Virus record (IMG/VR): IMGVR_UViG_3300045961_000373
Span: 1-30,773 of that record
Source of the DNA: a virus
Strand: one strand, 5' to 3'
Length of the DNA stretch: 30,773 nucleotides
The notes under the pieces are model-generated. The model was not told the DNA's origin and made no database searches. It was given only the letters and a program-made list of their open reading frames with translations. The translations under genes and the position numbers were made by a program. This document shows positions 261 through 6,518 of the stretch, piece after piece; positions within the stretch are counted from its first letter, which is position 1; the number at the start of each line of letters is the position of its first letter.

Positions 261-809
261 TTAAAAGAGGCTTAATTGAGGGTTTCTTTTTTCTTCATAC
301 ATCTCTGATACGACTTTTCTGACCCATCGATCAGTAACACATAACTGAATTGCCAAGTCCATAGTATTGGAGCCATTAAACATTCTTTTGATATACTTCC
401 GTTTAAGAAAAGATAAATCGGTTGGAACTTGAATTCTTTCTGAAGGAAAAGCAAATAATAGTTTTGAAGCGAGCTCGTCTCCACACTCTGTAGCGACAAT
501 TCGTAGCTGAATACTAGAAAATGTTTCAGGAATAGGCTTGTTTCGCTTTGCAAGAGCCTTTACCTTACTGCTATTAATACCTAATTTAATAGCTATTGAA
601 AGGGCATTATTACCGTTATAATGATCGTTAATATACTGTTGAATCTGAATAGATTTACCTGATGCTGGTACATAAATCTCAAGTCCAGGTACCTTGTGCA
701 TAAGAATAAGAGCATCATCTACAGATAATTTTTCAGCCACAATGCGCATTTTACCAGGGAAGTCATCCGCAGTCAAATTGGGTGCTAGTTTAAGGAGTTC
801 ACTTAACAT
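261..809 (-). CDS. Mor-type transcription activator with two tandem Mor domains and a C-terminal QLSLF peptide
   Basis: Product of 182 aa, last gene of the leftward early operon. I start it at ATG 809, which has GAGGG just upstream and lies 7 nt after the preceding stop; a longer frame to 887 overlaps that gene without good reason. Two copies of a Mor-like unit are visible: MRIVAE (21-26), GLEIYVP (42-48), YINDHYNGNN (59-68) plus a helix-turn-helix, then LRIVAT (102-107), SERIQVP (123-129), YIKRMFNGSN (139-148) plus a second helix-turn-helix. Mu Mor acts as a dimer on middle/late promoters; here one chain holds both units. The last five residues are QLSLF, the canonical beta-clamp-binding peptide. 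Known: Mor fold and role. Inferred: single-chain dimer activating the late operons, tethered to the clamp. Confidence 0.8.
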   Translation of the reverse strand: MLSELLKLAPNLTADDFPGKMRIVAEKLSVDDALILMHKVPGLEIYVPASGKSIQIQQYINDHYNGNNALSIAIKLGINSSKVKALAKRNKPIPETFSSIQLRIVATECGDELASKLLFAFPSERIQVPTDLSFLKRKYIKRMFNGSNTMDLAIQLCVTDRWVRKVVSEMYEEKRNPQLSLF

Positions 810-816
810 TATACCC

Positions 817-1233
817 TCAGAACAAAGAAAGCTGCTCGCATAAGATAGATGATGGTTGTGGTACTGATTTTTGAGCGTTACCATCAATTAACGGCATTTT
901 TATTGGAACTGAAATAGGCTCTTCCTCTGCTGTGCAGCCAGGCTTCCACATGTCTTTTGCTTCTGCCAGCATTAGTTCTAAAGATTTGTAGCCATTATCG
1001 AGTCTATGCTTTTCTAAATGACAAATAAGTTCATCCCATTCATCGAGCATGAATTGTCGCTTTAAATAATAGAACTCTTTTAACCCAGTGTACCTGACTT
1101 TGGGATCTCCACTGTATAATTGATAGATTATCTTACCAAACATCTGATACGTGGTTTCATTCCAATGTAATGCTTCCGCTTTGGGAATACCTCCAAAGGT
1201 ATAATCGCCACTTTGAAAAAAATGAGTACTCAT
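817..1233 (-). CDS. Unknown early protein ending in the clamp-binding peptide QLSLF
   Basis: Product of 138 aa, directly upstream of the Mor-type gene. ATG 1233 is chosen because GAGAG sits 6 nt before it; the frame extends further up but without a ribosome site. I do not recognise the fold. The N-terminal ~90 residues look globular and helical, rich in W, Y and F. Residues ~95-130 are acidic then proline-rich and probably disordered. This flexible tail ends exactly in QLSLF at the last five residues, matching the beta sliding clamp consensus QL(S/D)LF. The same peptide ends the next gene, but all five codons differ. A clamp-recruited early factor is inferred; the partner and activity are unknown. 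Confidence 0.75.
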   Translation of the reverse strand: MSTHFFQSGDYTFGGIPKAEALHWNETTYQMFGKIIYQLYSGDPKVRYTGLKEFYYLKRQFMLDEWDELICHLEKHRLDNGYKSLELMLAEAKDMWKPGCTAEEEPISVPIKMPLIDGNAQKSVPQPSSILCEQLSLF

Positions 1234-2683: not shown

Positions 2684-2936
2684 TTACAACCTCCGGAACA
2701 GGTGAATTAGTATCTTGTGAATCTTTTTTCCTAACAACTACGATGTCATCTGTTTTAGATGACAAAATTAACATCGCTCTTGTGAGCAGCGTGACTGCAT
2801 CATCCAATGAAGTATTGTCAAAATTAACTGACAATCGACCCTCAAACGGATTAAATACCACTGTAGCCAGTACAAGTTCTGGTTTATGTGGCATAACAGG
2901 AATTGGGCCTACATTTTTAGAAATTGTTACCGACAT
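2676..2936 (-). CDS. Small early protein of unknown function
   Basis: Product of 86 aa. ATG 2936 has AAGGAG upstream and overlaps the GemA stop by 8-10 nt, indicating translational coupling. The sequence has a central amphipathic segment (SLDDAVTLLTRAMLILSSK, residues ~43-61) flanked by beta-like stretches (LVLATVVFNPFEGRLSVNF) and a polar, proline-containing tail. No family is recognised. Position between GemA and the DUF3164-like gene places it in the transposition/accessory operon. Confidence 0.65.
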   Translation of the reverse strand: MSVTISKNVGPIPVMPHKPELVLATVVFNPFEGRLSVNFDNTSLDDAVTLLTRAMLILSSKTDDIVVVRKKDSQDTNSPVPEVVNG

Positions 2937-3337
2937 GATTTCTCCTTTTGCATAGCTATTAACGTATGACGAATTTTACTTACCATTTCTTTTGGTAACC
3001 AGCGCAGTGCACCCACTCCAAATCGATTTCTTATAAACGTATCAAATGCAGATAATTTTTTATCATCAGGCGCATTAGATACTTTTTTCCATAACCCAAT
3101 TAACATCGCCTGTTGCTTTTTTGTTGCCATGCCAGGAGGATCATTCGGTTGAATGATCCCCATCTGGTATGCTAGTGTAACCATGTTATCAATTGCTGAT
3201 TTTGCATTTTCATAAGAGAGATTTTTTGATGACGAAACACCATAGTTACTCTGTAAAAAGTGGCGATATAGATCATCACTCATTTTCACTTTGTTTTTCA
3301 AAGCATGTATAGCTTTGATTTGGCGTTGTGTTATCAT
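2927..3337 (-). CDS. gemA: GemA / Mu gp16 family regulatory protein
   Basis: Product of 136 aa, the usual size of the Mu gp16/GemA family (DUF1018). Recognisable parts are ITQRQIKAIHALKNK (2-16), DDLYRHFLQSNYGVSSSKNLS (21-41), the TKKQQAMLIGLWKKV segment (~72-86) and the C-terminal FIRNRFGVGALRWLPKEM block. Mu GemA is reported to influence host gene expression and DNA topology. Its ATG overlaps the stop of the preceding small membrane protein gene, consistent with one operon. Assignment to the family is confident; the molecular role here is inherited from Mu and not proven. Confidence 0.88.
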   Translation of the reverse strand: MITQRQIKAIHALKNKVKMSDDLYRHFLQSNYGVSSSKNLSYENAKSAIDNMVTLAYQMGIIQPNDPPGMATKKQQAMLIGLWKKVSNAPDDKKLSAFDTFIRNRFGVGALRWLPKEMVSKIRHTLIAMQKEKSCR

Positions 3338-3535: not shown

Positions 3536-4420
3536 TCAAATCGCCAGCATTCCTGCGCATTTTTCAATCAACGCAGGTGTTATTTCAACATTATTATCCT
3601 GTGAAACTCTAATGGTATTGTAAACCAACATATACAGAGTTCTTCCGTTCTTCTGACAGAACGAATAGTAGTTTTTACATATTCCATTTGCCTCTGGTAA
3701 GTGGGCTTTAATCATGAGCTCTGCATCGTGCTCAGTAATAGGCTTGAGTTGAGCATGACCACCGATACGGGTGTAAAGCTGAGCGAATTCACCACGCGAC
3801 CCGCGAATGTTTTCGACCAAAACAGGTGCCCCAGCCAACGCGATTCCTATTCCAGTTTTATCATGAAGCCTGCGAAGGAGTTCGAGTGAATCATATGTTA
3901 GTCGATCTGCTTCATCTATAATGATTACTCTATTTGAACCAGTTAGCGACAGGATAATTTCCTGAAACATGGAATGCTTTGTTCCATGTCCACCATAGCC
4001 TAATGTTTTATGTAAGTAAGAGATTAGAATTTTACTGGTAAATGTAGAATCTGTTTCGATTAGAATCGCACCAGAGTTTCTCCTTGCATACTCTTTGAGA
4101 GACTCTGTTTTTCCGTAACCAGATTCGCTGGTTATGAGTACTATTTTATGATCGATTTGCGCTCTTCTAAGCATCCCGAAAACTATTTTGGCATTTGTGA
4201 CCTGGCAAAATGGAATTTCAACAGATTTTAATGATGACTTTTCATTTTGGAGCGATAAATAAGATTTGACCGCATTGTCAATACCTTCTATATTTCCTTT
4301 ATACAGTCCTCTGAGCCACTGGCTGATAAGGGCTGATGAATACCCGATATCAGATGCGATTTTCGTGGCACTTATACCGGTTACCTGCATGTGTTTTTGT
4401 AACTGCTGTTGCAGTGTCAT
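3536..4420 (-). CDS. B: MuB-type AAA+ ATPase, transposition target selector
   Basis: Product of 294 aa. ATG 4420 has AAAGGAG upstream; the frame extends to 4516 only by overlapping the transposase gene. Domains: an N-terminal CI-like helix-turn-helix (residues ~12-40, TKIASDIGYSSALISQWLRG), then an AAA+ ATPase with Walker A SESGYGKT (98-105) and Walker B VIIIDEAD (165-172), then a small helical C-terminal domain. MuB binds DNA as ATP-dependent filaments, delivers target DNA to the transpososome and gives target immunity. It follows the transposase gene as in Mu. Confidence in the family is high. Confidence 0.92.
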   Translation of the reverse strand: MTLQQQLQKHMQVTGISATKIASDIGYSSALISQWLRGLYKGNIEGIDNAVKSYLSLQNEKSSLKSVEIPFCQVTNAKIVFGMLRRAQIDHKIVLITSESGYGKTESLKEYARRNSGAILIETDSTFTSKILISYLHKTLGYGGHGTKHSMFQEIILSLTGSNRVIIIDEADRLTYDSLELLRRLHDKTGIGIALAGAPVLVENIRGSRGEFAQLYTRIGGHAQLKPITEHDAELMIKAHLPEANGICKNYYSFCQKNGRTLYMLVYNTIRVSQDNNVEITPALIEKCAGMLAI

Positions 4421-4481
4421 GAGAGACTCCTTTAAAAGGGGTTGAGATGGGGAGTGAACTTCTACTTCACTCCCTTTTTTA

Positions 4482-6518
4482 TTAAAAACCAGCTGCTTTA
4501 ACTCCGTATAAGTCAAGATCGTCCAGAGGGTCTTTCTTCTCTGACATATCAGCTTCTAATGAATAATCGTAGTTGTTGGCAACTTTCCTCTTATGCTCTG
4601 TAATAATCTTGTCCATCGATGTAGCCATATAAATTTCTGTTGTTTTTGGATCAGCATCTGTAAAGCCGCGAGCATCATTAAGAGCTTTCACACCAGCAAT
4701 CCTGTTTTCGATGTAATCGGCATTATTTGTACCGGCCACAGTTTTTGCAATTTTCTTTACTGATCTTTCGACAAATCGTTTGCGGCGTATAGCTTCTTCA
4801 AGTTGCTCTCTTTGAACTGGCGTTCTTGCCATTGCAGATACGTTACCATCAAGTTCTGCAGTTCCAAGATAACTACCAGTATTATCTTCCCAGAACCAGG
4901 CGACACTGTAATCTTTTGGGTCTCTTCTCATTCGCACCACTTTGCCATTTGCTGAAACCATCCAAGGTGCATAATAGCGGATCTCAAGCTTCGAGTCTTC
5001 AACAACTGACTTTCTAATTTTTATAGGGACAGAAAGTGGTGAGCAGAACATTTTCAATGCTTCAGGACTAATTTGATAACAACGCTGTTCTTGGATTGCC
5101 TGCGGCCACTCTATATTGAATAGTTCGTCAGGACATTTACCACGCAGAACTTTTCCTGTAGATTGTTCTCTGTTGTATACTTCAGTGATATAACGATCAA
5201 AAACCTCTTCAAATTCATGAATTTTCCAAACTTTCCCTGCATTAATATCATCTTTTAAATTATCTGGCCTTTTTGTAATGTTTGGTCCACGATAACCAAT
5301 ATTGTGACGTGAAAACCCTGCGTTGACTTTACTGAATGTGCGTTCGCATATTTTAGACTCAGGATTATAGGGCCAAGCAAAATGAACAGTTATTTTAAGG
5401 TCTGTAAAAAGTGATATTGAAAGCTTTTCATCAACCTGCATCTTGTGCCAGGTGTTTATTACTCTTCCTCCAGAAAGAGCTTTTGAGCGATAATCTTTAC
5501 CATTATCAATAATCACATCGGATGGAATACCATATCTTTTGGCTGCTCTATAAAAAGCAGTGAAAATGTGGTCGGATTTTGGAGCCTCAATATGAACATC
5601 CCAACCTAACCATTTTTGACTTTTAACATCAATCCAGACTGTGATCCACATGAAATGAGTTCTACCATCAGCTGTTTCAACTGACACATCAGATTGAACA
5701 TGATCAGACACCCAAACTTCGCCGCATAAAATATCATCATAGTGCCTGCTAATATGGTAGCCGTATTTTGCCTTCCATTTTGCAAGGCCATTGCGCATGT
5801 AGAAAATAGAACTTTCTGAGAATTTACTTTTCAGTTTTCGCATGAATGACATATGTGATGGAAATTGTGAAATATCAAATGTGGGGTCTTCGCGTTTAAT
5901 TGCGCCTAGCACATTTTTCCAACAAGAATATGAACTTGGTTGGCGCTGATTTAGATATTCATTTTCAAAAAGTGTGCTCCACTCATCGTTAACAGTCGAT
6001 TCACGCTTGCCCCACTTAGGTCTAATGGCATTTACAGTAAATCCTGAATCTTCGTAGATTTTTTTTAGGCGCATGAATGATTTATACGAAGACCAGGTGC
6101 ACTCAGGGTTTTTCTGTGCATAATTATCGAGGAAAAATTCGAGTTGTGACTTGGTTTTTATTGTCTTGGTTACCTCATAAACAAATAAAAAATTTTTTAC
6201 GTACTGCCTTTCCCATTCTTTCATGGAACTTATAAGTAAGGCTTCTGTTTCAGGATCAGAGACGTCTGCATCAGTTTTGACTAGGTAGCTTTTTACTGTT
6301 GTTTCCTCAGGTTTAGCGGCCAATTGGGATACATACATTTTTTTACAGTCTTGTGGAAGAGAATCGAGCAGTATCTCATAAGTAAAACCTTTTTTACCAG
6401 GGCTTGGAACTTTTCTACAAACAAAAGTCCCATTTACACATTTTCGATTGAGAGTCCTGGTATGTATCCCCAGTTTTTCTACATCCTTTAATTTCAGCCA
6501 AATCTGTTCAGAAGTCAT
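4482..6518 (-). CDS. A: MuA-type DDE transposase
   Basis: Product of 678 aa, close to Mu A in length. N-terminal winged-helix DNA-binding domain (~1-65), end-binding helical domains (~95-255), then the RNase H-like core. The catalytic triad appears as D272 (WVSDHVQSD), D338 (DVIIDNGKD) and E392 (KICERTF), followed by the beta-barrel and a C-terminal region that in Mu contacts MuB. It joins phage ends to target DNA during integration and replicative transposition. ATG 6518 has AGG 9 nt upstream and overlaps a possible 45-codon leader frame. The C-terminus contains DDLDLYG, a weak look-alike of a clamp peptide. Confidence 0.95.
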   Translation of the reverse strand: MTSEQIWLKLKDVEKLGIHTRTLNRKCVNGTFVCRKVPSPGKKGFTYEILLDSLPQDCKKMYVSQLAAKPEETTVKSYLVKTDADVSDPETEALLISSMKEWERQYVKNFLFVYEVTKTIKTKSQLEFFLDNYAQKNPECTWSSYKSFMRLKKIYEDSGFTVNAIRPKWGKRESTVNDEWSTLFENEYLNQRQPSSYSCWKNVLGAIKREDPTFDISQFPSHMSFMRKLKSKFSESSIFYMRNGLAKWKAKYGYHISRHYDDILCGEVWVSDHVQSDVSVETADGRTHFMWITVWIDVKSQKWLGWDVHIEAPKSDHIFTAFYRAAKRYGIPSDVIIDNGKDYRSKALSGGRVINTWHKMQVDEKLSISLFTDLKITVHFAWPYNPESKICERTFSKVNAGFSRHNIGYRGPNITKRPDNLKDDINAGKVWKIHEFEEVFDRYITEVYNREQSTGKVLRGKCPDELFNIEWPQAIQEQRCYQISPEALKMFCSPLSVPIKIRKSVVEDSKLEIRYYAPWMVSANGKVVRMRRDPKDYSVAWFWEDNTGSYLGTAELDGNVSAMARTPVQREQLEEAIRRKRFVERSVKKIAKTVAGTNNADYIENRIAGVKALNDARGFTDADPKTTEIYMATSMDKIITEHKRKVANNYDYSLEADMSEKKDPLDDLDLYGVKAAGF

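Follow-up and report, generated by a model that had tools for sequence, protein, structure and literature searches.

In the stretch of viral DNA analysed here (30,773 nucleotides, IMG/VR record IMGVR_UViG_3300045961_000373; termed the window), two adjacent minus-strand genes, one for a Mor-type transcription activator and the other for an upstream orphan termed X, encode proteins that terminate in the same pentapeptide, QLSLF. Sequences of the QL(S/D)LF or QxxL(x)F type constitute the clamp-binding motif of Pol III, MutS, Hda, Y-family polymerases, TnsE and other transposition proteins (PMC5371812). The locus raises the question of why a phage transcription activator and its neighbour should both end in such a peptide.

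Locus and phage context

The features of the window that bear on this question are as follows.

261-809, minus strand: mor, a Mor/C-family transcription activator of 182 residues
264-278, minus strand: QLSLF at the C-terminus of Mor, identified from the sequence and from family conservation
814-818, minus strand: GAGGG, inferred Shine-Dalgarno-like site for mor, read from the sequence and overlapping the stop codon of X
817-1233, minus strand: gene X, an orphan open reading frame of 138 residues, with a helical domain and a long disordered tail in a single-sequence AlphaFold model
820-834, minus strand: QLSLF at the C-terminus of X, one of two QxxLF C-termini (last 15 residues) among 915 non-Mor ORF clusters
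835-942, minus strand: predicted disordered linker of X ahead of the clamp-type motif (AlphaFold pLDDT <50 from about residue 97)
2927-3337, minus strand: gemA, a marker gene of transposable phages that precedes X-mor within their array, on its upstream side (Pfam GemA E=8.5e-16)
3536-4516, minus strand: MuB-like AAA ATPase (phrog_296 E=1.2e-66)
4482-6518, minus strand: MuA-like transposase (phrog_310 E=1.2e-71; Pfam DDE_2 E=1.3e-8)

Profile searches place a phage repressor on the strand opposite to the array of transposase, MuB, GemA and X-mor, and the window also encodes a Mu-type portal, terminase, head protease, major head protein and contractile tail sheath (Pfam and PHROG). The presence of a MuA transposase, MuB, GemA, Mor and Mu-type head and tail genes identifies the source as a transposable, Mu-like phage. 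Transposable phages multiply by replicative transposition via the host DNA polymerase III machinery, as is known for Mu, and the host beta clamp is thus on their DNA. The order of genes at 8043-30773 is unlike that of Mu: past the repressor, the minus strand carries the minor head, portal and terminase genes, and the plus strand the protease, major head and tail genes; within the record, therefore, no late genes lie downstream of mor.

Mor ends in ...EEKRNPQLSLF, encoded by CAA TTA AGC CTC TTT and the stop TAA (the ATG is at 809-807), and X ends in ...SSILCEQLSLF, encoded by CAG CTT TCT TTG TTC and TGA. The earlier note on this DNA had reported that the peptide directly precedes the stop codon in both genes, with different codons at all five positions and no recent DNA duplication behind the pair. 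On re-reading the sequence the placement is exact and the codons differ at 5/5 positions, and duplication does not account for the shared peptide because X and Mor have no other similarity (best E 1.0). When every window ORF of 60 residues or more was scanned, a C-terminal clamp-type motif turned up in X and Mor only. With the composition of the window ORFs, QL[SD]LF is expected as the final five residues with a probability of ~2e-6 per protein, and any Qxx[LMI]F with ~3.4e-4, so two neighbouring QLSLF tails are not attributable to chance. The two genes are separated by 7 bp and the GAGGG element overlaps the stop codon of X, so that they appear to be translationally coupled. The DUF3164 protein (2072-2683), which ends in QINLDLASL, was considered as a carrier of a hexapeptide clamp motif and rejected, as the Q is not kept in its relatives, which have an I[SP]LDIA core.

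Mor resembles a single-chain dimer of the Mor/C family

The assignment of 261-809 as Mor-type in the earlier note proved correct, the protein matching Pfam Mor (E=1.5e-9) and phrog_836, annotated as late transcriptional activator (E=3.8e-15). Residues 90-175, corresponding to the dimerisation and HTH region, match PF08765 with 38.3 bits against a cut-off of 24.9. The alignment to phrog_836 reaches profile position 132 of 133, and the tail therefore belongs to the family profile. The window protein is by sequence a member of the family that includes Mu Mor (PDB codes 1rr7 and, in complex with RNA polymerase, 9l0y) and Mu C (RNA polymerase complexes 9l0x and 9vw8), and it has in common with both a clamp-type tail.

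In contrast with Mu Mor and C, the window Mor comprises two tandem Mor-like units in one chain, modelled by AlphaFold with 24 relatives at a mean pLDDT of 82; the first unit by itself gives a weak match to Pfam Mor (E=0.034). Having two such units, it looks like a tandem duplication in which one chain stands in for the Mor dimer and bears a single clamp-type tail. The tail is modelled at pLDDT 61, compared with 93-96 for the preceding HTH, and the clamp-type peptide is predicted to lie in a flexible, terminal segment in X as well as in Mor. Among the Mor and C chains listed for the PDB entries, most have 105-111 residues placed, with 129 of 140 placed in one C chain of 9l0x.

The clamp-type tail is conserved in Mor proteins of transposable phages

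Mor-family proteins were gathered from IMG/VR, bacterial genomes and phage records, and all tails were read; a second set of loci was picked solely by DUF3164, a different protein of transposable phages. Clustering at 50% identity of the core, with the tail excluded, yielded 56 GemA-linked Mor clusters and 34 without a GemA link, linkage being scored within the fetched stretch only. QxxLF was found just after the HTH in 35 of the 56 GemA-linked clusters versus none of the 34 others (Fisher 1.5e-10), and any clamp form (QxxLF, hexapeptide or QxxLL) in 44/56 versus 2/34 (Fisher 3.8e-12); GemA linkage was rejected as a phylogenetically independent test, the Mor tree being too poorly resolved to split function from shared ancestry. 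Within-tail shuffling gave a mean of 0.64 QxxLF and 3.2 of any form, with maxima of 5 and 11 in 2000. Of the 915 clusters formed by the other ORFs in these loci, two (0.2%), one of them X, have QxxLF in the last 15 residues, and 1.9% have any form there. The QxxL(x)F pattern, taken from PMC5371812, is present in 32 of the 56 Mor clusters; shuffling leaves 0.84 on average, and reversed tails have none.

Position 3 of the motif, which is free in the pattern, holds S or D in 22/35, compared with a background of 12.5% (p=4e-12), and the clamp consensus QL[SD]LF is thus recovered without being required. The linker from HTH to Q ranges from 4 to 18 residues. Only three columns of a 25-protein alignment (~20% identity) reach a conservation of 90% or more, the motif Q among them. 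The loci selected by DUF3164 present the same tail picture as the set gathered by Mor. Some GemA-linked clusters display weak forms (EPDLF, TGDLF) or no motif. In short Mor-like proteins from outside the loci of transposable phages, the tail is usually missing. Within this sample the clamp-type tail is restricted to Mor proteins of transposable phages.

Mu Mor has QPSLL in its tail, at residues 125-129, and Mu C has QPDLF at residues 130-134. Other Mor-family tails include QPELF and QPNLF in Vibrio, QPDLF and QRRLF in Shewanella, QFDMF and QRDLF in Pasteurella, QGKLF in E. coli PhiKM, QGDLF in Pseudomonas, QLALF in Bacillus BalMu-1, QFDLF in Rhizobium RR1-B and QMSLL in Faecalibacterium Mushu. 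The hexapeptide and QxxLL are other known shapes of the clamp motif, and in further Mor clusters these forms occupy the same place (QLSLDF, QLKLTF, QLNLPL, QLSFNF, QLSLL and QASLL). The peptide is kept across Mor and C proteins of transposable phages in both clamp-motif forms, which bears out for Mor the expectation that its homologues would conserve the final residues. The QLSLF of the window Mor is one instance of a family-wide feature and, judged on its sequence, very probably a genuine clamp-binding motif.

Gene X is an orphan

The single-sequence AlphaFold model of X consists of a helical domain extending approximately from residue 10 to 96 (pLDDT ~80), followed by a disordered tail of ~40 residues (pLDDT about 40) that ends in QLSLF. 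No homologue of X was found in phages, plasmids, IMG/VR, 342 loci or 398 genomes; the sole match in these searches, 34 residues with three stops, was rejected as spurious. Comparison of X with the Pfam and PHROG families gave no meaningful match. A fold search against the PDB and viral models returned nothing significant and says little, because the query was a model built from a single sequence. Mor-adjacent genes of the other phages examined have no clamp peptide, hence no counterpart of X, and a canonical C-terminal clamp motif occurs in no non-Mor protein of the related loci other than X. The description of X as a co-factor comes down to its tail, the predicted linker and the apparent coupling to mor. 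That X is a transcription cofactor is doubtful, and any role assigned to it is a guess.

A possible link between transcription and replication

The best overall explanation, to which we assign a probability of roughly 0.6, is that the tail of Mor and C docks on the host beta clamp and couples middle and late transcription to replication. The Mor/C proteins of transposable phages carry the motif on a short, flexible tail behind the DNA-binding HTH, from where this conserved linear peptide would enter the peptide-binding groove of the beta clamp (DnaN) of the host DNA polymerase III. Newly replicated phage DNA retains beta clamps, and through the tail the activator, and hence RNA polymerase, would be enriched or held more stably at the middle and late promoters of phage copies that are replicating or have just done so. 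Late gene activation would thereby be coupled to replicative transposition. X, with its helical domain, long disordered linker and QLSLF, may attach to this clamp as well, whether to partner Mor there or to occupy the clamp in the phage's favour. For a tail attached to a promoter-bound activator, favouring promoters on clamp-bearing DNA would be the most economical function, and we consider the chances that such coupling is the main role of the Mor tail to be even or slightly better.

According to the Mu literature, RNA polymerase alone suffices for Mor and C to activate transcription in vitro; the clamp is therefore not essential for activation as such, which in Mu the tail would serve to enhance or to time. 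In older work on Mu, full middle and late transcription reportedly depends on replication. Mu late genes are expressed once replication has begun (PMC4461284).

Two other functions have to be weighed for the Mor tail. The same motif evidence for clamp binding would hold if the tails served replication control or hijack instead of transcription, displacing host polymerases and repair factors or steering the clamp to the transposed copy, with X as a dedicated occupier and Mor as a second one. This proposal suits X better than Mor. X falls in no DNA-binding family and consists largely, in the model, of a small domain with a long tether, and a clamp blocker with such a motif is known in the SocB toxin of Caulobacter (PMC9690074). 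Against it, the motif is kept family-wide on a sequence-specific transcription activator and not on a separate inhibitor, the genes beside other mor genes are devoid of it, and Mu-type phages need active host forks; we regard hijack as unlikely. The serious alternative for the Mor tail is a contact with RNA polymerase (sigma region 4, alpha CTD or beta flap), its likeness to the clamp motif being convergent. Mor and C contact the polymerase directly and need the C-terminal regions of alpha and sigma70, as references given in PMC4287176 indicate, the PDB holds polymerase complexes of both activators (9l0y, 9l0x), and the extent of the longest C chain of 9l0x suggests that part of the tail may be ordered. 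Such a contact, however, leaves unexplained the preference for S or D at position 3, the alternation of pentapeptide and hexapeptide, the wide range of linker lengths, the absence of the motif from Mor relatives outside transposable-phage loci and the identical peptide on the unrelated X, and appears quite improbable.

Concerning X itself, its QLSLF could have arisen by chance, leaving the Mor tail alone as meaningful; X has no homologues in which its tail might be seen to be conserved. Yet the peptide is exact, stands at the extreme C-terminus after a disordered linker, lies beside the only other window protein that has it and is expected so rarely per protein that we hold coincidence to be very improbable. 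The interpretation put forward in the earlier note, in which the activator and a co-factor are both tethered to the host clamp, is partly supported: the motif is conserved in the Mor family, the step from there to late transcription coupled to replication is plausible, and the X half depends on the tail, the linker and the apparent coupling to mor, X having neither a homologue nor a counterpart in related loci.

Comparison with known clamp-dependent systems

The same note had drawn a parallel with bacteriophage T4, where gp33 and gp55 are clamp-bound transcription proteins acting with the sliding clamp gp45 (PMC2988020, PMC7892883). What is shared with T4 late transcription is the use of small phage transcription proteins whose flexible C-terminal tail bears a clamp-binding motif. 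In contrast, the T4 proteins are unrelated to those of the window, act with the phage's own trimeric clamp and a replacement sigma, and have other tail sequences (LDFL), whereas the window phage has an activator of the host sigma70 RNA polymerase and would presumably use the host DnaN dimer. The parallel is one of function and no more, for the parts have no kinship, Mor belonging to PF08765 and X to no Pfam or PHROG family, and the T4 clamp is its own gp45. Neither Mor nor X is a homologue of the gp55-type replacement sigma or the gp33 coactivator in Pfam and PHROG searches, and no gp45-type clamp was detected among the 19 window proteins scanned against the same collections, in a record that may be a fragment.

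Mor and X share their motif with bacterial clamp-binding proteins, and the Mor family displays both of its length forms. The difference lies in the carriers of the motif, known here from sequence, which are transcription activators instead of polymerases, repair enzymes or transposases. It is quite possible, though less likely than not, that in transposable phages as a group the tethering of Mor and C to the host beta clamp constitutes a replication-coupled switch independent of that of T4, to which the phage described here would have added X as a clamp-tethered coactivator.

The reviews surveyed describe no case of clamp-coupled transcription beyond the T4-type phages, which have a clamp of their own. 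No earlier statement of a link between Mor/C and the clamp was found in the open literature searched, which covered few phage Mu papers, and its novelty is provisional. Should the host beta clamp prove to be a partner of Mor and C, a second surface for binding will have gone unnoticed in a textbook family of activators, and the connection of replication with late expression in Mu will have a concrete, mutable cause. This would be a second, independently evolved role of a sliding clamp in transcription, one that uses the universal bacterial clamp.

Additional observations on Mor-like proteins and the mor-proximal region

Several Mor-like proteins depart from the common arrangement. Two adjacent Mor-family genes (L201:1042-1779 and L201:1820-2413) comprise one that ends in RQLSLF and another that is tailless; the motif can therefore reside on one of two paired Mor genes. 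Divergent Mor-like proteins at L292:8134-8568, L329:7320-7856 and L271:9018-9455 have a conserved GWCKLP tail instead. Those at L228:1889-2278 and L249:2158-2529, together with ~20 relatives from the phylum of genome G001, are tailless, occur several per genome and mostly have no GemA nearby. A chromosomal Mor-like gene of Salmonella located by lysC (L017:1354-1701) retains a decayed motif, QRRML, in which the F is lost, and the stretch read around it is without phage genes.

Many Mu-type Mor and C proteins also display an xDLF sequence within their first 15 residues, including MQHDLF in Mu C, MTEDLF in Mu Mor, QDDLF in Pmp9 and QSELF in HS6 (loci L004:8781-9170, L004:9963-10385, L019:1489-1917, L020:1462-1884 and L015:1483-1899). 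It was identified in only 9 of the 56 Mor clusters and, from its sequence, could be a second clamp-type motif.

Downstream of mor in the window, an AT-rich segment (41-251) contains six copies of WTTAAGACA, exact or with one mismatch and on both strands, at positions 41, 103, 123, 136, 158 and 243, compared with chance density in the rest of the window. These repeats are candidate Mor sites or transposase end sites.
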